NCBI RefSeq assembly: GCF_004114955.1
Contig: NZ_CP030053.1
Coordinates: 3,782,001 to 3,846,000, forward strand
DNA: 64,000 bases
From: Bradyrhizobium guangzhouense
GTDB lineage: Bacteria; Pseudomonadota; Alphaproteobacteria; Rhizobiales; Xanthobacteraceae
Direction: 5' to 3'
Shown: in pieces, positions 1,698 to 47,849 of the stretch
Numbering within the stretch: position 1 is the stretch's first letter
Layout of the letters: each line of letters starts with the position of its first letter
Made by a program: the position numbers and the translations under genes
The notes under the pieces: model-generated
Seen by the model: only the letters and a program-made list of their open reading frames with translations
Database searches by the model: none
What the model was told of the DNA's origin: nothing

Positions 1698-2027
1698 GCT
1701 GCGCCCTTGGTGATCAGGACGCGATTCTTTGGCATGACGCCTCGCGGGGAGATCGCACATCCCCGTAGCGCAAATAGAACGCCTCAGGCGCGAGCTGTCA
1801 ACGGCGTTTGCCTTGGGTGCGCCCGAAAACCATCGATGGAGCGTCACGAAGATTTCAGCACACGATAGGAACGAAATCGAGATCGCCCCGGGGTCACACC
1901 TCTGGCGGGGAACCCCCGCTTGAAGGAGCCACGCAATATCACATACACTGGTCGTCCGGGATCAAGCAGACTCCCGGCGAGACTTCGGTCCAAGTTCTGC
2001 GCAGCACGCAACACGTGGAGCTTGCGC
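1698..2027. other. Intergenic region, 330 bases, no gene seen
   Basis: The region separates the divergent chrB remnant and ATP-grasp-like gene and should hold both promoters. No convincing small gene, tRNA or long inverted repeat was found. An in-frame extension of the downstream gene begins at 1920, but its first 36 codons are Arg-rich and look non-coding. Confidence 0.5.
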
Positions 2028-3062
2028 ATGGATACCGAACGACAACTCTCTCCCCGACGCATCGTCGCCATCCTCTCGCGAGGAGATACCGTCGCGCGCC
2101 GAGATGCCACCTCGAGAAACGGCCGCTTCGCTGACGTGTTCGAAGCTCTCGCCACCGTCGGCGTCGACGGGCGCCCCGTGATCTACGACGAAAGCTTTGC
2201 CGACGCCGTCCGCGAACAACTGCTCGCGGTCGACGGCGTGCTCGTCTGGGTCAATCCGATTCAAGACGGCCGAAACCGCGCAAGCCTCGACGCTTTGTTG
2301 CGCGACGTTGCTGCGCAGGGCGTGTGGGTCAGCGCCCATCCGGACGTCATCCTCAAAATGGGCACCAAGGAAGTCCTCTATCGTACCCGTTCGATGAGCT
2401 GGGGATCGGACACGGCGCTGTATCAAACCGCGGCCGCCATGCGCGCCGAGTTGCCGAGCCGGCTCGCCGCCGGTCCGCGCGTGATCAAACGCAACCGGGG
2501 CAATGGCGGCCAAGGCGTCTGGAAGGTCGAGAAACTGCCGACCTCCTCCATGATCAAAATCCTGGATGCGACCAAGGTCGCACCCGAGGAACTGACGCTG
2601 GATGATTTCCTGCGTCGCTGCGCGGAGTATTTCGAGAACGGCAGCGTCATCGACCAGGCATTCCAGTCCCGCCTGAGCGAGGGGGTGGTGCGCTGCTATA
2701 TGGCCGGCGATCGCTGTGCCGGGTTCGGGCACCACAAGGTCAAAGCCCTGGTCGAGACGCCGGCCGCGCGATCCGAGGCCGGACCGCGGCTCTACACATC
2801 GAACGCGGACCCGCGCTTCCAGCGGCTGCGCCGGTTGATGGAGGACGAGTGGACGCCACAGCTAATTTCGCTGCTGGACATCGCGCGAGATGACCTCCCC
2901 GCGATCTGGGACGCCGACTTCATGCTCGGGCCCGTCCAGCCCGACGGCAGCGACAGCTACGTGCTCGGCGAGATCAACGTCAGCTCGGTGCATCCCTATC
3001 CGAGCGAGGCGACGGCGGAAATCGCCAGGCGGGTTGCCGACCGGCTGCAACTTAAGCTCTGA
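2028..3062 (+). CDS. Cj0069-family, ATP-grasp-like protein
   Basis: A 344-residue soluble protein. The central GPRVIKRNRGNGGQGVWKVE carries the Lys and Gly-rich loop of an ATP-grasp nucleotide site, and LGEINVSSVHPYP near the C-terminus supplies the Glu-x-Asn pair that binds metal in glutathione-synthetase-like ATP-grasp enzymes. By family this suggests an ATP-dependent carboxylate-amine ligase; the substrate is unknown. The start at 2028 is preferred over 1920 because GTGGAG lies 7 bases upstream and the upstream extension is Arg-rich and unconserved in character. The gene stands alone: chromate genes lie divergently upstream and an ABC-ATPase fragment begins just after its stop. Confidence 0.75.
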   Translation: MDTERQLSPRRIVAILSRGDTVARRDATSRNGRFADVFEALATVGVDGRPVIYDESFADAVREQLLAVDGVLVWVNPIQDGRNRASLDALLRDVAAQGVWVSAHPDVILKMGTKEVLYRTRSMSWGSDTALYQTAAAMRAELPSRLAAGPRVIKRNRGNGGQGVWKVEKLPTSSMIKILDATKVAPEELTLDDFLRRCAEYFENGSVIDQAFQSRLSEGVVRCYMAGDRCAGFGHHKVKALVETPAARSEAGPRLYTSNADPRFQRLRRLMEDEWTPQLISLLDIARDDLPAIWDADFMLGPVQPDGSDSYVLGEINVSSVHPYPSEATAEIARRVADRLQLKL

Positions 3063-3181: not shown

Positions 3182-3473
3182 CCTCCCCAGCGAGCCCTCT
3201 CGACAGAGGCTCTCCGCACCAAAATGAAAGTTCGAAAGTGTGGGCCAGTTCATAGAACCGCCGGCGCCGGACCAGCACAGTTGGAAGAGCGACTTTGGCT
3301 TGAAGTGGCGCCGACGTTACGGCCGAAGGTATGGGGCAAGTTCTTTTGGCCGAGCCGGCCGATCTCATCGACATTGCGACCTAAAGATGTATCTACTGAA
3401 ATAGTATGTAATAGTTGTACTCTGGCTCGCCCTCGAACGACAGTTCGGCCGCGAGCCGCCAGGGAGGCAGGAC

Positions 3474-6400
3474 ATGCGTCGCGATTTGACGATCAAGACC
3501 GGCAGCATGGCCGGCACGTCGGACTTCCGGGTGCTGGCCCCGATCAAGAAGGGGTTCGTGCCGTCCCTGGACGCGACCACGTACAAGACGCGCGTCAAAT
3601 ACGTTCTGCGGGCGCTCAACGGCGGACGCGCGAGCGCATATGAATACGAACTCGCCCGCGTCCTGTCCGACTCCGTGGACCGCGTCGGACGCATCCACTC
3701 CGTCGGCATCGCCGTGCTCGAGCCCGAGGACGATGCCGCGGATGCCGTGGACTACGTGCTGCTGACGGCAACGTTCGACGGCTCCTGGGAGGCCTATGTC
3801 CGCGTCATCTGGCAGAAGGCCGCGCGCCTGCTCGATCTCATCTTCTGCAATACCGAGGGCTATGTCCTCGGCTACGAAAACACCTATGAAGACTGGGGCA
3901 TATGGCTGAAGAGCCGGCAGAGCGAAGCCTACTTCCTCTACACCACGCCAGACCTGACCGTGGACGACACCCGCTTCCTGCGGATGGAAGAGCGGGTTTA
4001 TCGGCGCGCCTCGGGCGCCGATGCCGATCGGATCGTCACGGAAATCAAGATTCCCTCGCCGGAGGAGATTGCGCGACGGTCCATCTTCCAGGTCGACGGC
4101 CTCATCGGTGTCGATCCCACCGACGCAGGCTTCAGCAAGCCCCTCACCCTCGAAGCCGCCGGCCGGCCACCCTTCCGTCACGGCGTGCGCGCGCTCGCCG
4201 GGCTCTACCATCTGGCCGATTTCTATCCGCCGGGAACGCATGACGGGGTGATCCTGCACCGTGCGGCGCATGAGCTGCTGCCGGAATTCGTCGCCATGAT
4301 CAACGACGGCAACAGCTACGCCGAAGGCATTGGCCGCGCGCGCCTGCGCATTGACGAGGCGATGACCTGGCTGATGACCCCGCCCGATGTCGCGGAGCCG
4401 CGGATCGACCTGCCGTTGACCCCGCCGAGCGAACAGACATTGCAGGATCCCGGCAACGTACAGGCCGGGATTGTGAACCCCTACCCGGATTCGGACCATG
4501 GCGGCCTGCTGTTGCTGCAGTTTGCGACGCCGGCTGCACTCGCCGCGTTCCTGAACGTCCTGAAGGTGACGACCGAAGCCGACGCCCTGAGCGCGGGGCA
4601 GATCGTCACCAACATCGCCTTCACGGTCGAGGGCCTGCGTCATGCAGGACTGACGGACGACGAGGTGCGCAGCCTGCCGGAGGAATTCGTGCAGGGCATG
4701 GAACGGCGCGCCGGCCTGCTGGGCGACGTCCGCTGGAATCATCCCGGGCGATGGCGCCTGCCGGCGAGCAACTGGGCGCTCGGGGTCGATGCGCCGGACC
4801 TGCGTGCAGATGACCCGACGCCGCGCATCGACATGGGCGCCGTCCACGCCATGCTTCAGCTGCGCCACTTGTCCGCGGCCACGCCGATGGCGGAGACGCG
4901 AGCCGCGCTGATGGCCGAGATGAAGCGTCTGGTCGATGTCGATCCCGGCATAAGGCCGCTCTCGATCCAGTGGATGCAGCGACAGCGCGATGCCTCCGGT
5001 GACGTGCAGGACCATTTCGGTTTCAAGGACGGCACGTCCAATCCGGTGCTCAACAAGCGCGATGCCGGCCTGCGCTATTCCAATCAGGTGCATCTCGGCG
5101 AGATCCTGTGCGGCTACCCGAATGTGGCCGACAAGACCGCCCCCTACGGCGACACCGACAATCGCGCTCACGCAATGCTTCGCGACGGCAGTTTTCTGGC
5201 GCTGCGCAAGCTGCGGCAGGACATCGAGGAGTTGGAGGAGGTCCTGCTTCGCAGCACGCGGCAGGCGACCGATGCCGCAGCCGCCGGCGACCCCGTCCCG
5301 CCCCTGACGCGCGAGACGTTTCTGGCCAAGATGATGGGGCGCTGGCCCACCGGCCACCCGAAGGCGGGGCAGCCGCTGACCCCCACGCCCCCAGCCGGCC
5401 CGGGGTACAACGACTTCAACTATGATTACGACGCGAAGGCCGAGCTGTGCCCGTTCCACGCCCATATCAGGCGCGCCAATCCGCGGGTGCGATTGACCAG
5501 GGCCGATGGCGGCGCCCGGCCGCCGCGCATCGTCCGACGCGGCATGTCCTACGGTCCGCCTGCCAAGCGCGGCGACGCGCAGGCTGCCAAGGACGCCCTG
5601 CAACAGGAGCGCGGTCTCGTCTTCATGGCCTACAACGCCAGCCTGGGCGAGCAGTTCGAGGTGGTGCAGAGCTGGCTGGCCGGCGGCAACAGTTCGGGCG
5701 GCTCCTCCGGGGAAAGCGATCCCTTCCTCGGCCTCGCCGAACCAGGCCGGCTCCGGCATTTCCGCTTCGAGCACGAAGGCCAGACCGTTCGCATGGCACT
5801 CGACGGCTCGGACCGCCTGCACGACGAGCCCCGCCCTTTCGTTCGTCTCGAATGGGGCGCGTATTTCTTCGCGCCATCGAAGAAGGCGCTGGCGAGCCTG
5901 CAACAATGGGCTGCGAGCCAGGGACGCAAGCCACTGGTGCCTTGGAGCGTGGACGACGGCGAGAAAGAGATCGCACGGCTGCGCGAGATCGAGCGCGTCC
6001 AGGGCGAAGCCGCAGCGATGGCAGGGTGGAAGACGGTGATCGAAGATCCGGATTCGGCCGCGAATTTCATCAATGCGTCGATCTGGGCCGCGATCCGCGA
6101 GCGCCACGGCGGCGTGCTGCGCACACCCTTCGGGGTGCTGGTGGCCGACCGGGACATGGTCACACAGGTGCTGACCGATCCCTACCGGCATTTGACCATC
6201 ACCGGCTATCTCCCCCGCATGCAAGTGTCGTTCGGCATTCTCTATCTCGGCCGCGACGCCGGACAGGAAGACCAGGCCTATGAGAAGGAATCCGCCGTCT
6301 GCAACGACGCCATCATGGCTCTCGACCAGCCGGCTGCATTCCTACTCGCGCGAGCGACTACGCAGAAAGTCCTGCAAACTCTGGTCGACCTATCGATCAA

Positions 6401-8237
6401 ATTTGCCAAGGACGATGGCGAGGCGAGCTGGGAGCTGACGGTCGATGTACGCGAGCTGCTGGAGCCGCTGCTGGCCGTGTTCTGCGAGGAATGGTTCGGG
6501 CTGACCGAGCAAGACGGTTTCTTCCGCAAGCAAGGCTATCGCTGGGACTGGACGCCGGATCAGCCGCCGAACTATCCCGGCCATTTTCTGTCGCCCTCGC
6601 GCTACATCTTCCAACCACATCCCAATCAGGAGGTGGAGGCGATTGGCGCTGCGCACGGCTCGGCAGTACGGACCGCCATGATCGGTTTCCTCAACCGCTT
6701 CAAGACAACGATCACCGCGCCCGTCACCAGGGCCGTGCTCGATTCTCAACGGGCGCAGGGCGACATCCCGTTTGTGGCGCGCACCGTGGCCGGCTCGATG
6801 ATGGGCTTCATTCCAACCGTCGAAGGCAATTTGCGCCGGATCTTGAATGAATGGTTGCGCGAGGGGACCTTGTGGTCGTTGCGCGCGCGCTATGCCGGCA
6901 CGGCCGCAACAGACTACACCGATGCCCTCAACCGGTTGGGAGACGATTTCATCCCGGCGATGCAGCTGCGCGCGGTGCCCGAATTGATATGGCGGACGGC
7001 CGTCGCTTCGTTCGCGCTGGGAACCGGCGAGCACACGGTCGATGTCAGCCCAGGTGACATCGTCGTCGCCGGCGCGGTCTCTGCGACCCAGCAGAACCTC
7101 GTCGATGGCCGCAAGGACTACTATCACGCTTTCGGCGGTAACCGCAGGGTCGCGGGCCATCCCACGCATGCGTGTCCCGGCGCGCATCCGGCGCTGGCGG
7201 TGATGCTCGGTTTCTTCAGCGGGCTGGTGGAGTCGACGCTGCCGTTGCGCGCGGGCCCGGCGCCGCTGACGCTAAGTTTGGACGGAAGGCTGCCGGGAAA
7301 CCCCGGCTCTCCCCTCACCCTTGCCCTGGAGACCAGAATGCTGACCGCCAACGATTTTCGTTCATTCGATTTACGCTCGGCACCCATTGCAGCACTCCAC
7401 GATCCCCATGAATTTCAGATCCGGAGCGCCAAGCAATTGCCGCGCATCGCCACGGCTGAGCTGGTGACACTCGGTGATTCATGGCTGTTCAAATTCCCGT
7501 TTGGCCTTCGCCCAAGCCTCACTTCATCACTCGAGAAGCTCGGATACGCGGCGGCTGACAGCCATCGCTTCGGTACATTCGGAGCGCGCCTGGAGGATTT
7601 GGCCGGCCCCAGTAGCCTGGACGCACTGAGAAACTGTTTTCAAAACCCCGATCCATTCGCGCCGCCACCGCAGGCGTTGCTGATCGGCGGCGGCGGAAAC
7701 GACATCGTTGCTGGCTACACCACGCCGTCAAGCACGCCGCTTTACAAGATGCTGCTTCAGGCGCCCCCCACCAATACCGACCCGTTGATCGAGAGTGAGG
7801 TTCACGCGTTTATCGACGTCAAGATCGCGAACTTCTACCGGACCATCCTCGATTGCCTCGTTAACGAGCTGAACACCAACATTCCCATCCTGATCCACGA
7901 TTACGATCATTCGATTCCCGACAACCGCCCGGATCCGGCGGCAGGGCCCTGGCTGCACCCGATCTTCAACGCACGCGGCATCACCGATCCGGCGGTATCG
8001 CAAGACGTTATACGACGTCTGATCGACAGGGTGGGCGCGATGGTGGCAACGGTTGCAACGAGCTATCCGGGCCACGTATTCCCGGTCAAAACCGCGGGCA
8101 CGCTGGAAGCGGATCCTCGTTTTCAGCAAAATTACAAGCTGCTGTGGGCCAACGAATTCCATCCGACCGAGGACGGCTTCGACCTGCTTGCCAAGGTGGT
8201 CGCCGATAAGCTCAAGACCGGTTTCAACATCGGCTGA
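3474..8237 (+). CDS. DyP-type peroxidase / cytochrome P450 / SGNH hydrolase fusion
   Basis: A 1587-residue protein with AGGGAGG just before the ATG. Residues 1-320 are unrecognised (a FDGSW motif at 101-105). Residues about 330-820 are a DyP peroxidase: GFKDG at 516-520 with Asp519, proximal His664 in AHIRRANPR, and Arg689 in RRGMSYGP, so all catalytic residues are present. Residues about 855-1260 are a P450 with thiolate Cys1234 in GHPTHACPG; the usual Phe seven residues earlier is Ala1227. The I-helix reads GFIPT rather than AGxDT, and the K-helix has ExxxR (1170-1174). Residues about 1328-1587 are an SGNH hydrolase with GDSW at 1334-1337 (Ser1336), GGGGND at 1405-1410 and NEFHPT with His1563. 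No signal peptide is seen. The frame is uninterrupted for 4.7 kb. The pathway is unknown; coupling of peroxide chemistry, oxidation and ester cleavage is inference. Confidence 0.88.
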   Translation: MRRDLTIKTGSMAGTSDFRVLAPIKKGFVPSLDATTYKTRVKYVLRALNGGRASAYEYELARVLSDSVDRVGRIHSVGIAVLEPEDDAADAVDYVLLTATFDGSWEAYVRVIWQKAARLLDLIFCNTEGYVLGYENTYEDWGIWLKSRQSEAYFLYTTPDLTVDDTRFLRMEERVYRRASGADADRIVTEIKIPSPEEIARRSIFQVDGLIGVDPTDAGFSKPLTLEAAGRPPFRHGVRALAGLYHLADFYPPGTHDGVILHRAAHELLPEFVAMINDGNSYAEGIGRARLRIDEAMTWLMTPPDVAEPRIDLPLTPPSEQTLQDPGNVQAGIVNPYPDSDHGGLLLLQFATPAALAAFLNVLKVTTEADALSAGQIVTNIAFTVEGLRHAGLTDDEVRSLPEEFVQGMERRAGLLGDVRWNHPGRWRLPASNWALGVDAPDLRADDPTPRIDMGAVHAMLQLRHLSAATPMAETRAALMAEMKRLVDVDPGIRPLSIQWMQRQRDASGDVQDHFGFKDGTSNPVLNKRDAGLRYSNQVHLGEILCGYPNVADKTAPYGDTDNRAHAMLRDGSFLALRKLRQDIEELEEVLLRSTRQATDAAAAGDPVPPLTRETFLAKMMGRWPTGHPKAGQPLTPTPPAGPGYNDFNYDYDAKAELCPFHAHIRRANPRVRLTRADGGARPPRIVRRGMSYGPPAKRGDAQAAKDALQQERGLVFMAYNASLGEQFEVVQSWLAGGNSSGGSSGESDPFLGLAEPGRLRHFRFEHEGQTVRMALDGSDRLHDEPRPFVRLEWGAYFFAPSKKALASLQQWAASQGRKPLVPWSVDDGEKEIARLREIERVQGEAAAMAGWKTVIEDPDSAANFINASIWAAIRERHGGVLRTPFGVLVADRDMVTQVLTDPYRHLTITGYLPRMQVSFGILYLGRDAGQEDQAYEKESAVCNDAIMALDQPAAFLLARATTQKVLQTLVDLSIKFAKDDGEASWELTVDVRELLEPLLAVFCEEWFGLTEQDGFFRKQGYRWDWTPDQPPNYPGHFLSPSRYIFQPHPNQEVEAIGAAHGSAVRTAMIGFLNRFKTTITAPVTRAVLDSQRAQGDIPFVARTVAGSMMGFIPTVEGNLRRILNEWLREGTLWSLRARYAGTAATDYTDALNRLGDDFIPAMQLRAVPELIWRTAVASFALGTGEHTVDVSPGDIVVAGAVSATQQNLVDGRKDYYHAFGGNRRVAGHPTHACPGAHPALAVMLGFFSGLVESTLPLRAGPAPLTLSLDGRLPGNPGSPLTLALETRMLTANDFRSFDLRSAPIAALHDPHEFQIRSAKQLPRIATAELVTLGDSWLFKFPFGLRPSLTSSLEKLGYAAADSHRFGTFGARLEDLAGPSSLDALRNCFQNPDPFAPPPQALLIGGGGNDIVAGYTTPSSTPLYKMLLQAPPTNTDPLIESEVHAFIDVKIANFYRTILDCLVNELNTNIPILIHDYDHSIPDNRPDPAAGPWLHPIFNARGITDPAVSQDVIRRLIDRVGAMVATVATSYPGHVFPVKTAGTLEADPRFQQNYKLLWANEFHPTEDGFDLLAKVVADKLKTGFNIG

Positions 8238-8251
8238 GGCGGGGCGCCGGC

Positions 8252-11200
8252 TTACTGGAGCCGTCCTGCCTGTTCCGCATGCCAGTGCATGCCGAGCGCG
8301 CGGAGCTTTTCGGCAGCCTCAGTTGCGGTTTGACGGGCCATTTCAACCTGGCCCTGCTGCGCGAGAAGCTCGGCGTGCGCGGCCAGGTTCAGAGCGGCAT
8401 CGCGCAGCGAGCCGCGCCAGCCTGCGGAGGTTTCGGCCCGCAGCAACCAGCGCCGGCCTCGTCCAAAATCCCCCCGACGGGCCGAAAGCCTCGCGAGTGC
8501 GCGGCACGCCATTGCCTCGCCCAGCCGCTCGCCTTCGCGCGCGCGGCCCAGCACATGGGCTGCGTACCGCCGTGCCGTATCGACATCGCCTTCGGCCGCC
8601 GCCGCCTCGACCAGCCAGCTATATTGCACCGACGTGTAGAAGTGAAAGTTGCGCCGCTCCATCCATTGCGCGGCGTTTCGTAGCTGCTGCAAGCCATCGG
8701 CATCGCCGGTCGTGGACCAGCGGGCAAATCCGGATGCCGCGCGGCACGCCGTCAGCATCAGCAGGCTGCGCATGTTTTCGGCGGCGCGAGCGCCCTCCAC
8801 GGCCAATTGCTCGGCCTCCTGCCAGCGGCCTTGCCAGACCAGCGCGACCGAGACCCAATTGCGCACAGAGCTCACGACCGGATGGGTCGAACCTTCGACC
8901 AGGCTCATCGCCTCGTTGAAACACTCATGGGCGCCATCGAAATCGCCCCGATCGGCCAGGATGCTGCCCTTGCACGACAACGAATAGGCCGAGCCGACGG
9001 CAATCGCGCCATGGCGGCGGCTGCGCGCAGTCGAGATGGCAGCGTCGATCAAGGCGGTGGCCTCGTCGTATTGGCAGCTCGCGGCGAGAATCTGCCCCAG
9101 CACGGCTTTTATCCGAGCGATCAGGCGGGGCTCCCCGAGCTTGTGCGCCCATTCCAGCGCCGTTCTCGTGTGTGTCACCCCTTCGCGAAAGCGGCCGAAG
9201 CCGTAGCAGGTGTAGCCGAGCCACTCATAAGCAGCGGCCGTCGCGCCGGTGTCGCCGAGCGAGGACGCGATCGCGACCGCCCGTTCGAACACGCTGGTGT
9301 CCTCGGTCAACGACAGGGGATCGAAGATGTTGGCCATGCCGAGTTTATTCGCCAGCAGGCACCAGCGCAGGGATTGCTCGCGCGAGCGATCCGGCAACCG
9401 ATCCAACGCATCCATGGCAGCCTTGTACTGGGCCCCGGCAAGGTCCAACGCGAAGGCCGCCATGGCCTTGTCGCCGGCGCGTTCGGCATAATGAGCGGCG
9501 TTTTCCCAATGCCCTGCCCCGCGCGAATGGTGGGCCAAGGCTTCCAGCGTGTCTTCGCGGTCGGCCTGCTCGGACCGCGCCAGCAAACTGGCTTCGATGC
9601 GCTTGTGCAAGGCCTGGCGCTCGTGCAGGGTGATGGTGTCGTAGACAGCGTCCCGCGTGATGCCGTGCTTGAAGCGAAGCATATCGCCGGCTGGATCGGC
9701 GAAGAGAAAATCCGCGTCGGCCAATGCCCGCAAGGTCTCCGCGTCGGGCTCGCTGCCGCAGGCCGCCACGAGCAGGCTCTTCGGGACCGTGTTTCCGATC
9801 ACCGCAGCGGCGCGGACAATCTTCACCTGACCCGGCGGCAGGCGCGACAGGCGCGACGCGACCAGCGTGGCGATCCATCCGCCTTGCTGGCTGCGCATCT
9901 CGAACGATGCATTGTCGTTGGCCGCGATGGAATGGCACAGCTCCTCGATGAACAGTGGCACCCCGCCGGCATAGGCGTGAACACGGGCCACGAGGAAGGG
10001 ATCGGCTTGCGGCACCCAGCGTCGTACGGCGATGTCGGTTTCCCCTCCCGCAAACGGCTTCAGCAGCATATGCGGCGCGCCGGAAATCCACTCGGTGCCG
10101 TCGTCGCGCGGCCGGCTGGCGAGGATGAAGCGCGGTCCATGGGGCAATTGCAGGAGTTTTTCCAGCAACTGCCGGCTCGCGTCGTCGGACCATTGCCAGT
10201 CGTCGATCACCATCATCAACGGCCCTTGTGCCGACAAGACGGTAAAGAACCCGAGCAGGTCACCGACGACGCCATCGACGGTCATGCGGCCGCCGCGCGC
10301 ATCGGCGCCGGTCGAGGCGAGTGCGACGATCGTTTCCGCGCGTGGACCGAGTTCGGCGAGCCATGGCTGCAGCGCGTCGCGGGCCGTCTCGTCGGCTTCG
10401 GCGATCGATGCGTCCGGTCGTATGCCCAAAGAGGCGCGCAGCATCTGCAGAAACGGTTGGAGCACCTCGGCGCCGACATAGCTCTCGCAGCTCCCCCGCA
10501 GCAGCTTGAACTGATCGGTATCGCAGTCTCGCAGCACCTCTTCCAGCAACCGCGTTTTGCCGAGCCCGGGACCGCCGACGACGACGGCACATCGTCGCGA
10601 GACCGGCTGTGGTTCGCTGAGAAAGCCCGTCAGAAAGTCGAACACTTCGTTGCGCCCGGTGAAGGGCGTCAAGCCGCGCCGGGACGTTGCGTCAAACCGC
10701 CGGGTCACCATGCTTCGTCGCAGCACCGCACGCGCTTGCGGCATCTCCGGCCCGGCGTCCGGCACCTGAACCAGGGCGCCGAGCTCGAAGAAATTCGCGT
10801 GCGGCCCAAGGGCATCAATGCTGGCGAGGATCTGGCCCGGGGCAGCCCGACGCGACAAATGCGCAGCCGTATTCACGACATCGCCGACCAGGTCATATCG
10901 GCCGGACTCGATATCCCCCTCGGTCAGAAGCAAGGTGCCCGCGTGGATGCCCGAATGCATGCGAAGCGGCAGTAGAGCCGGGGACACGCTGTCGTGGCGC
11001 AACAAGCCAACCCACCTGTGAATGTCGATGGCGGCTTCGGCGGCACGACGACCGTCATCCTCGCCGGACCGCGGATAGCCGAACACGGCCAGAACGCCAT
11101 CTCCCTGCGTCCGGATGACGCGCCCGCCATGCTTGGACACCGCGCGATGCCAGATATCCCTGAGCTGCCCCAGCAGTTCGGAGAGATGCTCGGATTCGAT

Positions 11201-11293
11201 TTCCCGGCCCAGCATGGTGGACCCGACGAGGTCAGAGAAAAGCACCGTCAATCGATGACGTTCGGCTTTCAGGTCGCGGGTCTGCGTGATCAT
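8252..11293 (-). CDS. Class III adenylate/guanylate cyclase-AAA-helical repeat regulator
   Basis: A protein of about 1013 residues. Residues 10-165 are a class III nucleotidyl cyclase domain: metal-binding Asp21 in FSDLVGST and Asp65 in TQGDGVLAVFG, then VGDVVNTAAHLS with Asn141. The Arg usually four residues after that Asn is His145. A P-loop ATPase follows (VVGGPGLGKTRLL, Lys246, and Walker B-like MMVIDDWQWSD), and the C-terminal half is alpha-helical and TPR-like. This is the layout of LuxR/MalT-like STAND sensors with a cyclase in front. The ATG at 11293 is chosen over an upstream TTG at 11365. It converges on the peroxidase-P450 fusion with a 14-base gap. The ligand and nucleotide product are unknown. 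Confidence 0.85.
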   Translation of the reverse strand: MITQTRDLKAERHRLTVLFSDLVGSTMLGREIESEHLSELLGQLRDIWHRAVSKHGGRVIRTQGDGVLAVFGYPRSGEDDGRRAAEAAIDIHRWVGLLRHDSVSPALLPLRMHSGIHAGTLLLTEGDIESGRYDLVGDVVNTAAHLSRRAAPGQILASIDALGPHANFFELGALVQVPDAGPEMPQARAVLRRSMVTRRFDATSRRGLTPFTGRNEVFDFLTGFLSEPQPVSRRCAVVVGGPGLGKTRLLEEVLRDCDTDQFKLLRGSCESYVGAEVLQPFLQMLRASLGIRPDASIAEADETARDALQPWLAELGPRAETIVALASTGADARGGRMTVDGVVGDLLGFFTVLSAQGPLMMVIDDWQWSDDASRQLLEKLLQLPHGPRFILASRPRDDGTEWISGAPHMLLKPFAGGETDIAVRRWVPQADPFLVARVHAYAGGVPLFIEELCHSIAANDNASFEMRSQQGGWIATLVASRLSRLPPGQVKIVRAAAVIGNTVPKSLLVAACGSEPDAETLRALADADFLFADPAGDMLRFKHGITRDAVYDTITLHERQALHKRIEASLLARSEQADREDTLEALAHHSRGAGHWENAAHYAERAGDKAMAAFALDLAGAQYKAAMDALDRLPDRSREQSLRWCLLANKLGMANIFDPLSLTEDTSVFERAVAIASSLGDTGATAAAYEWLGYTCYGFGRFREGVTHTRTALEWAHKLGEPRLIARIKAVLGQILAASCQYDEATALIDAAISTARSRRHGAIAVGSAYSLSCKGSILADRGDFDGAHECFNEAMSLVEGSTHPVVSSVRNWVSVALVWQGRWQEAEQLAVEGARAAENMRSLLMLTACRAASGFARWSTTGDADGLQQLRNAAQWMERRNFHFYTSVQYSWLVEAAAAEGDVDTARRYAAHVLGRAREGERLGEAMACRALARLSARRGDFGRGRRWLLRAETSAGWRGSLRDAALNLAAHAELLAQQGQVEMARQTATEAAEKLRALGMHWHAEQAGRLQ

Positions 11294-11583
11294 CGGCGCT
11301 GTCGAGGCCAGCTCGTTCCCAAACAGCAAGCGCGGCCCAAGCTGGCGCCAGACCGGATGCCGCAAGATATATCATACACACCAGTAGGGTGCCGGCTAGC
11401 GTCCTAGATCACAAAGGTAAATCTCGCGCGACGGCATATAAAGATCGGCAGATTTGCCGCCGCGGTTGCTTTGGACCGGCGGACCACGACCGGCTCGCGC
11501 CTAAATCTGCGATATGGGGCACGCGTCAGCACGATACCGTCGCGGCCAGGACGATCCGTTGCGCCATCGCCTGCCGAGGCGTC

Positions 11584-14598: not shown

Positions 14599-15414
14599 CT
14601 AACGCAACGGCAGCAACTCCAGCTGGCTCTGCGCCGTCTTCACGGCCGCCGCGAACCAGCTCTGGCTGGGCGCCTCCTTGGCAAAACACTTGGTATAGGC
14701 CGCCATCGCCCGGTCTTCCCTGGCCATGTCGTCTTTCGGCACATTCTTTGCCATCATCTGCTTCCAGACCTTTTCGCAGGCCGGGATGTCGGCCGTCTTG
14801 ATGGCCTCGCTCGCGGCAAGGAAGAACACCTTATCGCCCTGGATCGCAACGACGTCGATCTCGTGCGGCGGCCCCTTGAGGTCGCCATTGCCGCGCACGC
14901 CGAGCACCGCGACTGCGGCGCTGACTGACGCCGGCTTGGTGATCGGCAACTCGGCATATTTCGCGAAGGCGGCGTCCTGGATCGCGGCATAGTAAAACGT
15001 ATCGGACTTGAACGCCGCGTCGATCTCCTGCGGCATGGGATCCTGGCGATGCTCGGCAAGCCAGTGCTTGAGCAGCGAGGTCGTCGTCACCACGGCCTGC
15101 TGCTTGTCACCCTCTGTGGCAAAGGCGAGCCCGTCAAGGTGGCCAAAGCCGATGTCGCCCTTGAACAGCGTGTCGACGTTCGACTTGCCCTCGGCCGGCA
15201 GCCCCTTGATGGCAACCGGCCCGACCAGGCCGCGCAGCACGCCGGTCAACTCGTCGAGCGCGGCATCGTGTTGCTTGCTGGTCTCGTCGCTCTCCTTGGC
15301 CTTCGAAAACTTTGCGATGTAGCGGTCGCGCAAATCGAGATAGTGCTGCTGGGAAGAGGCTGCGTGTGCAGACGTGGCGAGGGCAAGCAGGCAGAGCAGA
15401 GCGGTCAATCTCAT
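14599..15414 (-). CDS. Hypothetical periplasmic protein
   Basis: A 271-residue protein with a clear signal peptide (MRLTALLCLLALATSAHA). No family is recognised. The mature part is alpha/beta with single Cys residues at IPACEKVW and YTKCFAKE, which could form a disulfide. The start at 15414 is chosen because the signal peptide begins there; a longer reading from 15480 adds only a non-hydrophobic leader. It ends 64 bases from the convergent dihaem cytochrome gene. Confidence 0.6.
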   Translation of the reverse strand: MRLTALLCLLALATSAHAASSQQHYLDLRDRYIAKFSKAKESDETSKQHDAALDELTGVLRGLVGPVAIKGLPAEGKSNVDTLFKGDIGFGHLDGLAFATEGDKQQAVVTTTSLLKHWLAEHRQDPMPQEIDAAFKSDTFYYAAIQDAAFAKYAELPITKPASVSAAVAVLGVRGNGDLKGPPHEIDVVAIQGDKVFFLAASEAIKTADIPACEKVWKQMMAKNVPKDDMAREDRAMAAYTKCFAKEAPSQSWFAAAVKTAQSQLELLPLR

Positions 15415-15600
15415 TGCGATGTCCGAAGGGTTTTGCGGCAATCTCCAATCTTGGTGACGTTGCGGGCCCGGAAGGTTCATTCCTTGCGGTGTGCCCCGCT
15501 CCGCCGGAGAACCAATCCTTCACCAAGCCTGCCGGGTTCGATTGAGCGCCGGAAGCCCGGGAGGTAAATTCCGCTGCAATGTTTCCCGGGAACGACGTCC

Positions 15601-42569: not shown

Positions 42570-43052
42570 CTACGACGACGCGAGCTTCGGCCGGCCGTAG
42601 ATCGCATCCGCCCGTTTTTCGAACGCGGTGGAAAACCGCGCGAAGGCAGCGTCGAACATCGAGCCCATCAGCATGGCCAGCATGCGGCTCTTGAACTCAT
42701 AGGCGAGGAAGAAGCCGACGTCGCAGACGTCATTGCCGTCCTGCTGGCCTTTCGGCTCGAACGTCCAGCGGTTTTCCAGATTACTGAACGGACCTTGCAG
42801 ATATTCGACCAGAATCTTCAAGTTGGCGCGATCGAGCGTGACCCGGCTGGTGAAGGACTCCTTGACCAGCTTGAAGGACACCGTCATGTCGGCGACCAGC
42901 ACCTCGGTGCCATCGGGCTTGGCCATGCGCTGGCGGATCTTCAGCGCGCTGCACAGCGGCACGAACTCCGGGTAGCGCTCGACGTCGGCGACCAGATCAA
43001 ACATCTCGGATGCGCTGTGGTTGACACGGCGCTTGCTCGAAAATCGGGGCAT
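42570..43052 (-). CDS. ratA: RatA/COQ10 START-domain protein
   Basis: A 160-residue protein with a single START-like fold. The N-terminal FSSKRRVNHSASEMFDLVAD and VERYPEFVPLCSALKI are the family signature, and the C-terminal helix is FDAAFARFSTAFEKRADAIY. Members bind ubiquinone (COQ10 type) or were described as the RatA inhibitor of ribosome subunit joining in E. coli; which applies here is open. It follows lipA by 6 bases, a usual pairing in alphaproteobacteria. Confidence 0.87.
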   Translation of the reverse strand: MPRFSSKRRVNHSASEMFDLVADVERYPEFVPLCSALKIRQRMAKPDGTEVLVADMTVSFKLVKESFTSRVTLDRANLKILVEYLQGPFSNLENRWTFEPKGQQDGNDVCDVGFFLAYEFKSRMLAMLMGSMFDAAFARFSTAFEKRADAIYGRPKLASS

Positions 43053-43058
43053 ATCGGT

Positions 43059-44015
43059 TCAGCGCGCGGTCGCGGCCCGCGCGGCCTTCAGTCTCGCAAA
43101 ATCCTCACCGGCGTGATGCGACGAGCGGGTCAGCGGGCTCGCCGACACCATCAGGAAGCCCTTGGTGTACGCGACCTTTTCGTAAGACGAAAACTCGTCC
43201 GGCGGCACGTAGCGCATCACGGCGTGATGCTTGCGGGTCGGCTGGAGATATTGACCGATGGTCAGGAAATCGACGTCGGCAGAGCGAAGATCGTCCATCA
43301 CCTGCTGCACTTCGTGGCGCTCCTCGCCGAGGCCGACCATGATGCCGGACTTGGTGAAGATGGCGGGATCGAGCTCCTTGACCCGCTGCAGCAGCCGGAT
43401 CGAGTGGAAATAGCGCGCGCCTGGCCGCACCGTGAGATAGCGCGACGGCACCGTCTCGAGATTGTGGTTGAAGACGTCGGGCCGCGCGGCGACGACGACT
43501 TCCAGCGCGCCCTCCTTGCGCAGGAAGTCCGGCGTCAGGATCTCGATCGTCGTCGAGGGACAGGCAGCGCGGATCGCGCGGATGGTGTGAGCAAAGTGCT
43601 CGGCGCCGCCGTCGGCGAGATCGTCGCGGTCGACCGAGGTGATGACGACGTGGGCGAGACCCAGCTTGGCGACGGCCTCGGCGACGTTCTGCGGCTCGGC
43701 CGCATCCAGCGCATTGGGCAGGCCGGTCTTGACGTTGCAGAAGGCGCAGGCCCGGGTGCAGGTGTCACCCATGATCATGAAGGTCGCGTGCTTCTTGTCC
43801 CAGCACTCGCCGATGTTCGGGCAGCCTGCCTCCTCGCACACCGTGTGCAGGCCGTTGGCGCGCACGATGTTGCGGGTGTCGGCATAGCCGCGGGTGTTGG
43901 GCGCGCGCACGCGGATCCAGTCCGGCTTCGGCGGCGAAGCGGAATCGGGGCGGTTCACCTTTTCGGGGTGGCGCGGGCGCAGCGGGTTCGTGATGGTATC
44001 GACAATAACGACCAT
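43059..44015 (-). CDS. lipA: Lipoyl synthase
   Basis: A 318-residue radical SAM enzyme that inserts two sulfurs into octanoyl chains on lipoyl domains. The auxiliary cluster cysteines are in [13 protein letters not shown], and the radical SAM cluster is [10 protein letters not shown] (CxxxCxxC). The C-terminal [10 protein letters not shown] contains the Ser ligand of the auxiliary cluster. Length is normal. It is the first gene of the lipA-ratA pair and divergent from the glycosylase gene. Confidence 0.96.
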
Positions 44016-44145
44016 GATCTGTCCGGTCTGTTCAGGTCCTACCTAGTCGGTCTGGCTGTCTGCCGCAACCCGGCTCGCGCCGCTTCAGGGAACATGGCAG
44101 ATATGGGCAATATCCTGCTCTGTTCTCAGGCGATTCTCACCTCGA

Positions 44146-44748
44146 ATGGCTCCAGTCTCGAAGACTTCCACGCCCCGGCTCGGCAAGGCCCTGAAGCGCA
44201 GCTTTTTCGACCGCGACGTCCGCGAGGTCGCGCGCGATCTGATCGGGGCGACCATGCTGGTCGACGGCGTCGGCGGCATCATCGTCGAGGTCGAGGCCTA
44301 TCATCATACCGAGCCGGCGGCGCACTCCTACAACGGTCCGACGCCGCGGAACCAGATCATGTTCGGCCCGCCCGGCTTTGCCTATGTGTACCGCTCCTAC
44401 GGCATCCATTGGTGCGTCAACTTCGTCTGCGAAGAGGCGGGCTCGGCCAGCGCCGTGTTGATCCGCGCGCTGGAGCCGACCCATGGCCTCGCCGCGATGC
44501 GCCGCCGCCGCCATCTCCAGGAGGTGCACGCGCTGTGCTCGGGCCCGGGCAAGCTGACCGAGGCCCTCGGCATCACCATTGCGCACAACACCCTGCCGCT
44601 AGACCGACCGCCGATCGCACTGCATGCACGGACGGAGGATGTCGAGGTCGCGACCGGCATCCGGATCGGCATCACCAAGGCGGTCGAGCTGCCCTGGCGC
44701 TATGGCGTCAGAGGCTCGAAGTTTCTGAGCAAGCCGTTTCCGAAGTGA
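44146..44748 (+). CDS. DNA-3-methyladenine glycosylase (AAG/MPG type)
   Basis: A 200-residue base-excision repair enzyme of the mammalian-type AAG family. Signature segments are [33 protein letters not shown] with the catalytic Glu, then [20 protein letters not shown] with the Tyr residues that intercalate and stack on the flipped base, and [14 protein letters not shown]. It removes alkylated purines. It has its own promoter region of 130 bases shared with divergent lipA, and a palindromic repeat follows the stop. Confidence 0.9.
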
Positions 44749-44752
44749 TCAT

Positions 44753-44834
44753 CGTCATTCCGGGGCGGCTCGAAGAGCCGAACCCGGAATTTCGAGATTC
44801 CGGATTCGATGCTTCGCATCGCTCCGGAATGACG
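44753..44834. repeat. Cloverleaf-like palindromic repeat
   Basis: The outer arms CGTCATTCCGG (44753-44763) and CCGGAATGACG (44824-44834) pair perfectly. Three inner hairpins follow in order: GGCT/AGCC, CCGGAAT/ATTCCGG (44784-44803) and GATGC/GCATC. The element sits between the convergent glycosylase and valS genes. It is another dispersed repeat family of the Bradyrhizobium type, distinct in sequence from the others in this window. Confidence 0.7.
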
Positions 44835-44843
44835 GTGGTGGGG

Positions 44844-47720
44844 CTACGACGCCTGCTTGAGCCGCTCCAGCGCCTCGAGCAGCTTGGCCTTGCGGGCCAG
44901 CGCCGCCTCGCGCTTTTCGCGCTCTTCCTCAACGACCTCCTCGGCCGCGTTGGCGACGAACTTTTCGTTGGCGAGCTTGGACTCGGCACGCTTGATGTCG
45001 GCATCGGCCTTGCCGATTTCCTTGTCGAGGCGTGCACGCTCGGCGGCGAAATCGACCACGCCCTTCAGCGGCAGCGCGGCGACCTCGCCACGGACGAGGA
45101 GTTGAACCGCACCGTCAGGTGCGCGATCGGCGAAGGAGATGTCCGACAGCCGCGCCATCCGCTTGATGACGTCGGTCCAGCGCGGCGCGCGCTCCCTGGT
45201 CTCCGCCGAGGCCCCCGCGAGCACCAGCGCGGTCAAAGTCGCCGGCGCAATGTTCATCTCGGCGCGCACCGAGCGGATCTGCGTGATCAGGTCGATCACC
45301 CAGCCGATCTCCGCTTCCGCCTTGGGATCGGTGAAGTCGGCATGGTCGAAGATCGGCATCACGAACGCCGGCGAGACCAGTGGATCGGTCGGTCCGGCCG
45401 CAGCCGCAAGCATCGCAAGCTGCTCCGTCGTCGGTTCGGTCCGCTTCAGCGGCCATGGCGCCAGCGCGAGCAGCCCGTCGCGCTTGGCCGTCACCTCCCA
45501 CAGCTCTTCGGTGATGAAGGGCATGAAGGGGTGCAACAGCTTCAGGATCTCGTCGCGCGCCCAGGCGACCATGGCGCGGGTCTCGTCCTTGGCGGGGCTA
45601 TCAGGGCCGAGCAGCACGGGCTTGGCGAGCTCGACATACCAGTCGCAATAGACGTTCCAGACGAAGCGGTAGATGCTGCCTGCGGCATCGTTGAAGCGAT
45701 AGGCTTCGATGGCCTCGGTCACCTCGCGCGTGGTTTGCGCACTCTCATGCGCGATCCAGCGGTTCAGCGTTTCCTTGGCCTTTGCCGGCTCGAAGCCCTC
45801 GGGCACGGCGCAATTGTTCATCTCGGCGAAGCGCGAGGCGTTCCAGAGCTTGGTCGCGAAATTGCGGTAGCCCTCGACGCGGCTGGTGGCGAGCTTGATG
45901 TCGCGTCCTTGTGCGGCCATCGCGGCCAGCGTGAAGCGCAGTGCGTCGGCTCCATATTCGTCGATCAGGTTGAGCGGATCGATGACGTTGCCTTTCGACT
46001 TCGACATCTTGGCGCCCTTCTCGTCGCGGACGAGGGCGTGGATGTAGATCGTCGAGAACGGGATCTCCTTCATGAAGTGAAGGCCCATCATCATCATCCG
46101 GGCGACCCAGAAGAAGATGATGTCGAAGCCGGTCACCAGCGCATTGGTCGGGTAATAGCGCTGCACTTCGGGCGCATCTTCAGGCCAGCCGAGCGTCGAG
46201 AACGGCCACAGCGCCGAGGAGAACCAGGTGTCGAGCACGTCCTCATCGCGCGTGATGAAGCCTTCGCGCTTGTTGCGGTCGAGCGCCATCTCGCGGCCCT
46301 GCTCGGCCGTGATGACCTCCTGCTCGACGTAATAGCCGAGCGCGTGGCTGATCGCCTCCTCCTCGGTCTCCGCGACGAACACCTTGCCGTCGGGGCCGTA
46401 CCAGGCCGGGATCTGATGGCCCCACCAGAGCTGGCGCGAGATGCACCAGGGCTGGATGTTCTCCATCCACTCGTAATAGGTCTTTTCCCAGTTCTTCGGC
46501 ACGAAGGTCGTCTCGCCCGAACGCACCGCCGCGATCGCGGGTTTTGCCAGCGTCTTGGCGTCGACATACCACTGGTCCGTGAGATACGGCTCGATCACGC
46601 TGCCCGACCGATCGCCGTGCGGGACCATGTGGGTGTGCGGCTCGATGCGCTCGACAAAGCCGAACGATTCCAGCCGCTCCACGATGCGCTTGCGCGCCGC
46701 GAAGCGGTCGACCTTGTGGAACTCCTCGGCGAATTGCGCGGCGCCTTCCGGCAGGCCCTTCAGATAGTCCTCGTTGTCGAGGAGGTCGAGGCAGCCTTCC
46801 TTGTCCAGCACGCTGATGCGGCGCAGGCCGTGGCGATTGCCGACCTCGAAATCGTTGAAGTCGTGCGCCGGCGTCACCTTGACCGCGCCCGAACCCTTTT
46901 CGGGATCGGAGTATTCGTCCGCGACAATCTTGATCTTGCGGCCGACCAGCGGCAGGACCACGTTCTTGCCGATCAGCTTCTGATAGCGCTCATCCTCGGG
47001 ATGCACGGCCACGCCGGTGTCGCCGAGCATGGTCTCGGGCCGTGTCGTCGCAACCACGATGAAGGTGGAGCGATCCTCCGGGTCGAAACTCTTCCCCTCG
47101 ATCGGATAGCGCAAATACCAGAGGTGGCCCTTCACCTCGGTCTGCTGCACTTCGAGATCGGAGATCGCGGTGAGCAGCTTGGTGTCCCAGTTCACCAGCC
47201 GCTTGTCCTTGTAAATCAGCCCATCGCGGTGCAGCTCGACGAACACCTTGATGACGGCCTTGGACAGGCCCTCGTCCATGGTGAAGCGCTCGCGCGACCA
47301 GTCGCAGGAGGCGCCGAGGCGCTTGAGCTGGTTGATGATGGTGTCGCCGCTCTCGGCCTTCCACTGCCAGACCCGCTCGAGGAACTTCTCGCGGCCCATC
47401 TCGCGGCGGCCGGGCTGCTGGCGCTCCATCAGCTGGCGCTCGACCACCATCTGGGTCGCGATGCCAGCATGGTCGGTACCGGGCTGCCACAGCACGTCGC
47501 GGCCGCGCATGCGCTCGAACCGGCACAGGATGTCCTGCAGCGTATTGTTGAGGGCGTGGCCCATGTGCAGCGAGCCCGTCACGTTCGGCGGCGGGATCAC
47601 AATGGTGAAGGGCACCGCGTCGCGGCGGTCGGGACGGCCGGCCTTGAAAGCAAGGCTGTCCTCCCACACGACGGACATGCGGGCTTCGATATCGGCGGGC
47701 TGGTAGTTTTTCTCGATCAT
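44844..47720 (-). CDS. valS: Valyl-tRNA synthetase
   Basis: A 958-residue class I aminoacyl-tRNA synthetase. The HIGH motif appears as HMGHALNNT and KMSKS as AKMSKSKGN. The editing domain lies between them (VATTRPETMLGDTGVAVHPED). The anticodon-binding domain and the C-terminal coiled-coil arm (RARLDKEIGKADADIKRAES) complete the enzyme. The order tolC-popZ-valS is conserved in Rhizobiales. No unusual feature was seen. Confidence 0.97.
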   Translation of the reverse strand: MIEKNYQPADIEARMSVVWEDSLAFKAGRPDRRDAVPFTIVIPPPNVTGSLHMGHALNNTLQDILCRFERMRGRDVLWQPGTDHAGIATQMVVERQLMERQQPGRREMGREKFLERVWQWKAESGDTIINQLKRLGASCDWSRERFTMDEGLSKAVIKVFVELHRDGLIYKDKRLVNWDTKLLTAISDLEVQQTEVKGHLWYLRYPIEGKSFDPEDRSTFIVVATTRPETMLGDTGVAVHPEDERYQKLIGKNVVLPLVGRKIKIVADEYSDPEKGSGAVKVTPAHDFNDFEVGNRHGLRRISVLDKEGCLDLLDNEDYLKGLPEGAAQFAEEFHKVDRFAARKRIVERLESFGFVERIEPHTHMVPHGDRSGSVIEPYLTDQWYVDAKTLAKPAIAAVRSGETTFVPKNWEKTYYEWMENIQPWCISRQLWWGHQIPAWYGPDGKVFVAETEEEAISHALGYYVEQEVITAEQGREMALDRNKREGFITRDEDVLDTWFSSALWPFSTLGWPEDAPEVQRYYPTNALVTGFDIIFFWVARMMMMGLHFMKEIPFSTIYIHALVRDEKGAKMSKSKGNVIDPLNLIDEYGADALRFTLAAMAAQGRDIKLATSRVEGYRNFATKLWNASRFAEMNNCAVPEGFEPAKAKETLNRWIAHESAQTTREVTEAIEAYRFNDAAGSIYRFVWNVYCDWYVELAKPVLLGPDSPAKDETRAMVAWARDEILKLLHPFMPFITEELWEVTAKRDGLLALAPWPLKRTEPTTEQLAMLAAAAGPTDPLVSPAFVMPIFDHADFTDPKAEAEIGWVIDLITQIRSVRAEMNIAPATLTALVLAGASAETRERAPRWTDVIKRMARLSDISFADRAPDGAVQLLVRGEVAALPLKGVVDFAAERARLDKEIGKADADIKRAESKLANEKFVANAAEEVVEEEREKREAALARKAKLLEALERLKQAS

Positions 47721-47849
47721 GGGGCTGCTAGAAAGCCGCGCGCGGGGTTCAAGTCAACGGAAAGCTCAGCGGCAAAAGGGCTTTCCGGCCCGACCGGCAG
47801 GTCAAGTATGACATAGGAGCAGGGCTTTATCGGGGCCGGACGGCCCGGT

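Follow-up and report, generated by a model that had tools for sequence, protein, structure and literature searches.

A conserved bacterial fusion of a DyP-type peroxidase with a divergent P450-like domain and an optional SGNH hydrolase, accompanied by a cyclase-AAA-TPR gene

The window, a stretch of 64,000 nucleotides from Bradyrhizobium guangzhouense, carries on its forward strand a single frame of 1587 codons plus stop. The frame runs without interruption and is preceded by a strong ribosome-binding site, both as described in an earlier note on this DNA, which had read three enzyme folds out of it: a DyP peroxidase, a cytochrome P450 and an SGNH hydrolase, each with its key residues in order. 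A second gene lies fourteen bases downstream of the fusion in convergent orientation. The features are as follows (source of each assignment in brackets):

3462..3467, + strand: GGGAGG ribosome-binding site, 6 nt 5' of the ATG (sequence)
3474..8237, + strand: gene of the 1587-aa fusion protein, P0001 (open frame, homologue search, alignment)
3474..4433, + strand: N-terminal domain, residues 1-320, conserved, without known family (alignment, profile searches)
4434..5918, + strand: DyP-type peroxidase, residues 321-815 (Pfam, NCBIfam, PDB, alignment)
5028-5030, + strand: Asp519 (alignment)
5463-5465, + strand: His664 (alignment)
5538-5540, + strand: Arg689 (alignment)
6006..7298, + strand: P450-like domain, residues 845-1275 (alignment, hhalign)
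6810..6818, + strand: site with Pro1114, in the place of the acid-alcohol pair (alignment)
6960..6962, + strand: Met1163, in place of the ExxR glutamate (alignment, final register by eye)
7173-7175, + strand: codon of Cys1234 (alignment)
7455..8234, + strand: SGNH/GDSL hydrolase, residues 1328-1587 (alignment, Pfam in relatives)
8252..11365, - strand: predicted class III cyclase - AAA_16 - TPR protein, convergent partner (Pfam, co-occurrence, alignment)

A homologue search over 5.8 billion proteins, in which 8000 candidates were scored, returned 495 homologues of the fusion at E<=0.001. Among the 120 matches listed, identity goes down to about 45% and most are full-length with the same domain order, so that the search for this order elsewhere, as suggested in the earlier note, did find relatives. 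The SGNH serine is present in 97 of the 120 (a few of them partial, e.g. P0041 and P0086), while the remaining 23 stop directly after the P450-like domain. The main alignment comprises the window protein and these 120 homologues (121 sequences, 71 after thinning at 80% identity). Here, residues 1-1280 are conserved, residues 1281-1320 form a variable linker, and the SGNH serine occurs in 98 of the 121 sequences, the window protein counted. The three domains named before hold across this alignment, with their key residues in the expected order. Because of the 495 homologues and this conservation, a chance or artefactual frame could be ruled out, and the comparison confirms the frame as real, intact and ancient. 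A gene that is normally split could be ruled out as well, since the 97 homologues carry the P450-like domain and the SGNH serine in one chain; in one metagenome-assembled genome the fusion is split (L012 and L015), with the break at contig ends. The SGNH part is optional, and the order therefore reads N-terminal domain (1-320), DyP (321-815), P450-like domain (845-1275) and optional SGNH domain (1328-1587). This composition of four predicted parts, the P450-like one being very divergent, is well supported. The source names of single homologous proteins include other families. In wider taxonomic samples, full-length relatives were found in the home genus only (2 of 398 for the phylum, 2 of 397 for the order), and the literature searched, which took in few subscription papers and no bioRxiv preprints, contained no report of such a fusion.

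The DyP domain is detected by standard profiles. NCBIfam TIGR01413 matches residues 510-805 of the window protein with E 2.9e-28, at 99.1 bits just below its cut-off of 100.5; Pfam Dyp_perox_C (PF20628) reaches 33 bits, above its cut-off of 20, and DyPs in the PDB match down to E 1.4e-25. In addition to the profile match, the distal Asp, proximal His and distal Arg of DyP-type peroxidases are all found: His664 is present in 121 of 121 aligned sequences, Arg689 in 120, and position 519 has Asp in 106 sequences and Glu in the other 15. The His, the Arg and the Asp/Glu site also hold in the six loci of a divergent clade and in a Sphingopyxis copy. The family thus has Asp519, His664 and Arg689 in common with DyP-type peroxidases (TIGR01413). 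It is unlike them in its 15 sequences with Glu for Asp519 and in its architecture, the domain being embedded in a chain of about 1250-1620 residues, whereas the matched PDB chains have 392-493.

Ordinary profiles did not detect a P450. Pfam p450 (PF00067) matched none of 31 diverse relatives at E<=0.1, none of seven P450-domain pieces at E<=10 and none of ten divergent or short relatives at E<=1, and a PDB profile search with the P450-like domain found no P450. For a profile-profile comparison, real P450s were collected with PF00067: 17 matches came from the window's genome, and others from 60 genomes of the phylum; 42 rows with the full domain and the Cys motif were kept, 39 of them distinct by their last 300 residues. 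With hhalign, the family domain aligned to 15 P450 rows with 51% probability and to the 42 rows with 93.9% (E 1.6e-7). The wider family alignment of 79 non-redundant sequences raised this to 96.6% (E 4.8e-10) over 334 collinear columns. In the latter run, all 14 controls, in which forward profiles were set against reversed ones or the profiles of DyP, SGNH and the N-terminal domain were used in both directions, remained at 1.2% or below, and both profiles reversed together gave 95.4%, as expected. In the 93.9% run, one control was an outlier, the DyP profile compared with a reversed version of itself (36%); barring the P450 comparison and its doubly reversed form, all others were at 2.6% or less. 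Domain profile searches, the check proposed in the earlier note, thus found the DyP domain. The P450 placed there at residues 855-1260 was missed by Pfam and PDB profiles, an outcome which that note would have counted against it, but was recovered by the controlled hhalign comparison at E 4.8e-10. Residues 845-1275 therefore appear homologous to P450s over the whole domain.

'Cytochrome P450' is the source name of 4 of the 63 relatives found with the P450-like domain, P0152 (NCBI) and P0155, P0160 and P0173 (JGI). Another relative of this domain, P0166 (415 aa, 34% identity, 52 member sequences), begins with a Met, and the domain may therefore also occur stand-alone. Separately, two short PF00067 matches in different open frames were observed at G000:C1:3184315-3184694, which looks like a broken ordinary P450 gene.

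Cys1234 occurs in 121 of 121 sequences and is aligned by hhalign with the haem cysteine of real P450s. It is kept in 107 of 108 sequences of the wider set (Met in the remaining one) and in all 25 rows of an alignment that takes in the divergent clade and Sphingopyxis. The usual haem-ligand loop of P450s is FxxGxxxCxG; the loop found here includes the cysteine ligand with CxG, is longer than usual, and has FGG preceding and HxCPG at the Cys. HxCPG, R1174 and GFxPT are near-invariant, with Pro instead of the Thr in Sphingopyxis. The ExxR of the K helix, present in all 42 real-P450 rows (39 distinct), is missing in the fusion family: position 1163, in a register set by eye that differs by one residue from that of hhalign, has Met, Phe or Leu in all 121 sequences and Glu in none, and position 1166 is Arg in 115. 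Some ExxR can be found within residues 1125-1215 in 97 of the 121, in the window as EWLR at 1126-1129 just after helix I, and within residues 1140-1200 in only eight. The acid-alcohol pair is replaced by Val/Leu/Ile-Pro, with Thr at the first place in 2 of 113 sequences. Pro1114 is present in all 111 sequences that have a residue at this position and in none of the 39 distinct real P450s, of which 34 have Glu or Asp at the acid place and 35 Thr at the alcohol place. Because the pair is lost, as in OleT-type peroxygenases, and fungal 9-AOS P450s likewise have a Pro in SRS4, we regard the domain as a putative peroxide-driven P450, which would use peroxide or hydroperoxide without a reductase.

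For the C-terminal part, the earlier note had predicted an SGNH fold at residues 1328-1587. The window protein alone matched no SGNH profile at E<=1 (Pfam), but Lipase_GDSL_2 (PF13472) matches 23 of 31 diverse relatives and the catalytic blocks are conserved, with Ser1336 in 98 of 98, Asn1409 in 94 of 97 and His1563 in 97 of 97 sequences (the remaining rows being gaps); the fold is thus recovered through the relatives. Matches to TesA-type proteins in the PDB were weak (E 0.56-0.83). The family shares the GDSW, GGND and His blocks with SGNH/GDSL hydrolases of the lysophospholipase L1/TesA type. It is unlike them in the acid of the DxxH motif (position 1560, Asn1560 in the window), for which 82 of 97 sequences have Asn and the other 15 Asp, and in that the domain is fused C-terminally and, on a quick tree, repeatedly lost. 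On this FastTree tree of 56 chosen sequences, built with the SGNH columns left out by a quick method with long branches flagged, SGNH presence needs four changes, which implies three losses inside an SGNH-bearing clade and an SGNH-less outgroup, L021. With tblastn (E<=1e-3), no SGNH relative was found in the flanks of nine short-form loci, nor for L021 and L071. At the other end of the protein, the N-terminal domain gave no Pfam or PDB match worth naming among 18 members; stray Pfam matches had E values of 0.0065 or higher and concerned one or two members each, and its profile showed no relation to the DyP, P450 and SGNH profiles in hhalign. This domain, the lost ExxR glutamate, the lost acid-alcohol pair and the Asn for the DxxH Asp go beyond the earlier note.

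The convergent cyclase gene is closely linked to the fusion. Among 242 congeneric genomes, searched at E<=1e-60 for the fusion and E<=1e-80 for the cyclase orthologue, the fusion is present in 25 and the orthologue in exactly the same 25; no genome had either of them alone at these thresholds. In 296 evenly sampled genomes of the family, both were found in the same five. The two genes are adjacent in 23 of the 25 genomes, with matches 18 to 374 bases apart; G064 and G1105 carry them on separate contigs. In G1105, each gene sits at the start of its contig; in G064, a contig start is close to the cyclase, and the frame after the fusion looks transporter-like by eye. Seventeen of the pairs are convergent, while the six of a divergent clade of about 40% identity are co-directional. 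In an earlier count by locus, 16 distinct loci had downstream DNA and 15 of them a neighbouring cyclase; in the exception, L003/L018, the cyclase sits on another contig. The best cyclase paralogue in the window's genome reaches 30% identity and 172 bits, whereas in a search of this kind the neighbours in the six divergent-clade loci score 682-703 bits. A mobilizable Sphingopyxis plasmid (L071, NZ_CP102385.1 32652-55048) keeps the pair at 32% and 38% identity; there, the fusion match begins at residue 507, abutting a Tn3 transposase, and a Crp/Fnr gene is annotated beside the cyclase orthologue. Adjacent genes travel together, and the 25 co-occurrences are therefore not independent events. The adjacency kept across two orientations and down to 38% identity is the stronger argument for a partnership, which, judged by gene content and order, is well supported. 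The 'self-contained' oxidation-hydrolysis machine of the earlier note is not supported, as the SGNH domain is missing in 23 of the 120 listed homologues, the N-terminal domain had been overlooked and the cyclase-AAA-TPR gene strictly co-occurs.

Class III nucleotide cyclases have two metal-binding Asp and a catalytic Asn and Arg. In an alignment of 25 cyclases, FSD is present in 24, GDG and the Asn in all 25, the Arg in seven and His in 18, including the window. This His marks the main-clade cyclases (18 of 25, again with the window), while the Arg is found in the divergent clade and in the Sphingopyxis copy. In class III cyclases the Arg serves transition-state stabilisation, and the His-bearing cyclases may differ in activity from the Arg-bearing ones.

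In the divergent clade, a patatin-like gene lies directly upstream of the fusion on the same strand in six of six loci, and no SGNH match was found in these loci. GxSxG and DGG are conserved in all six patatin-like proteins; the Pfam patatin match is above cut-off in all four tested and covers only the C-terminal part of the model. Among 30 chosen genomes (the 25 and five without the system), a patatin search found the six divergent-clade genomes and G1058, whose match of 39% identity lies on another contig. Patatin in trans looks like a replacement for SGNH as the putative acyl hydrolase of the divergent clade. The count over all 25 genomes speaks against this: the fusion extends to the end of SGNH in 8 and is truncated within SGNH by a contig end in one, six have the patatin, and ten have neither. 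TRAP-type transporter genes lie upstream of the fusion on the opposite strand in 7 of 15 loci compared (L005, L007, L009, L011, L013, L014 and L016; identified by Pfam in L009 and by blastp in the others), with DctP in all and DctQ-DctM in six; in five loci they are divergent and within about 2.4 kb. Upstream of the other eight, which include L072 and the window with its only 3.4 kb of upstream DNA, they were not found. The TRAP genes may be a shared chromosomal background or a substrate importer.

Three further observations concern the window. A Cj0069-family / DUF6815 gene (1920-3062, +) lies directly upstream of the fusion; none of the genes upstream of the window fusion, this one included, was seen beside relatives among the matches listed. 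Beyond the cyclase and on its strand, a 293-aa protein with a signal-like N-terminus (14599-15480, -) gave no Pfam, NCBIfam or PDB match and recurs in several Bradyrhizobium loci (L004, L005, L007, L009, L013 and L086). Farther downstream, a 1673-aa open frame starting from TTG (42795-47816, +), without Pfam match, is overlapped by a 958-aa frame on the other strand.

As a tentative reading, which we favour while rating it somewhat short of probable, we propose that the fusion is a diheme, self-sufficient acyl-lipid oxidase with a peroxide-driven P450 that works with cyclic-nucleotide signalling. Its product would be a probably cytoplasmic enzyme with two haems and four parts. A hydrolase, either the fused SGNH domain or the separate patatin of the divergent clade, would release an acyl substrate, on which the DyP domain would consume or form a (hydro)peroxide. 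The P450 domain, driven by peroxide and not by O2 and a reductase, would rearrange or hydroxylate the DyP product without a redox partner, and the cyclase-AAA-TPR protein would link a cyclic nucleotide to what the enzyme makes or to the oxidative state. The domain order, the conserved active-site residues, the lost O2-activation pair and the cyclase co-occurrence can be read from the sequences, and a peroxide chemistry shared by DyP and P450 fits the loss of the O2-activation residues. Beyond this, we infer the lipid substrate, the sharing of peroxide and the signalling. Against this reading stand the Pfam and PDB profiles that miss the P450, the ten genomes with neither fused SGNH nor patatin match, the Asn in the DxxH motif and the His for Arg in the main-clade cyclases. 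Dyes and phenols are the known substrates of DyPs, which are not known to act as lipid dioxygenases. The TRAP-type transporter of 7 of the 15 loci, which is of the organic-acid kind, could point to another substrate. Rather doubtful is the more specific idea of a bacterial oxylipin-like signalling cassette, in which SGNH in cis, or patatin in trans, would serve as acyl hydrolase and together with a DyP-P450 diheme synthase feed a dedicated cyclase-AAA-TPR protein turning the oxidised product into a cyclic-nucleotide signal; the synthase would then have arisen independently of the fungal dioxygenase-P450 fusions.

In a different account, the fusion would be an H2O2-driven detoxifying or catabolic enzyme whose DyP and P450 domains oxidise aromatic or plant-derived compounds and whose SGNH domain cleaves their esters, with no lipid involved. 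DyP families do act on aromatic compounds, SGNH enzymes cleave many esters, and the DctP and DctQ-DctM set upstream in 7 of the 15 loci would suit such a role. The other eight loci, however, did not show TRAP genes upstream, and a patatin-like phospholipase, a lipid-type hydrolase, stands upstream in all six divergent-clade loci; we consider this account unlikely. The residue losses in the P450-like domain could also mean that it is a non-catalytic, haem-binding or structural module and that DyP is the only oxidase, as the ExxR glutamate is missing in all 121 sequences (Met/Phe/Leu), the acid-alcohol pair is gone and Pfam p450 does not match. Yet Cys1234 is invariant, HxCPG, R1174 and GFxPT are nearly so, and CYP157 P450s reportedly have no ExxR either, which makes a loss of catalysis quite unlikely in our view.

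A defence-like or stress module, with the cyclase-AAA-TPR protein sensing a threat and fusion plus lipase acting as an effector that damages membrane lipids, would be in line with the patchy distribution (25 of 242 and 5 of 296 genomes) and with the 5'-lacking copy beside the Tn3 transposase on the mobilizable Sphingopyxis plasmid, which has kept its cyclase. Cyclase and patatin are also paired in nucleotide-signalling defence systems. However, Pfam matches for ten frames within the first 20 kb showed no evident defence gene, and two conserved redox haem sites would be unusual for a known effector, so that we rate this module as very unlikely.

If the proposed peroxide-driven diheme oxidase is real, a peroxidase and a peroxide-driven P450 would have been joined in nature a second time and independently, here in bacteria and with another peroxidase superfamily. 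The family also brings to light a P450-related branch that escapes Pfam, in which the cysteine is kept and both the ExxR glutamate and the acid-alcohol pair are gone. The strict co-occurrence with one cyclase offers a testable two-gene system, and the whole hints at an unstudied route by which bacteria produce oxidised molecules, perhaps lipids, and react to them.

Among known systems, CYP152 peroxygenases (OleT, P450BS-beta) resemble the fusion family in having other residues for the acid-alcohol pair, the alcohol giving way to Pro; in OleT the pair reads Arg245-Pro246 (PMC5377825). They are unlike it in standing alone and in having a carboxylate-binding Arg where the family has Val/Leu/Ile. 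CYP152 peroxygenases also keep ExxR. The plant oxylipin route (patatin/lipase, lipoxygenase, CYP74; in part PMC13049297) similarly combines an acyl hydrolase, a peroxide-forming enzyme and a self-sufficient P450; lipoxygenase and CYP74 are absent here, and the likeness is one of analogy only. Fungal dioxygenase-P450 fusions (linoleate diol, allene oxide and epoxy alcohol synthases; PpoA type) have a haem peroxidase-type enzyme N-terminal to the P450, as is the case here; these P450s act without a redox partner and keep HxC (PMC13049297, PMC4420034). In the 9-AOS branch, the P450s fused to dioxygenases show (V/A)PxT or TPxG in SRS4 (PMC13049297), with a Pro like Pro1114. The fungal peroxidase belongs to the cyclooxygenase superfamily, whereas an N-terminal peroxidase-cyclooxygenase domain was not found in the bacterial protein, where the peroxidase is a DyP. 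To our knowledge, the fungal fusions also lack an SGNH domain, a comparable N-terminal domain and a cyclase partner. The two kinds of fusion are convergent at most: by analogy, the bacterial protein may work like the fungal dioxygenase-P450 fusions, while forming a separate, DyP-based family with a P450-related domain.
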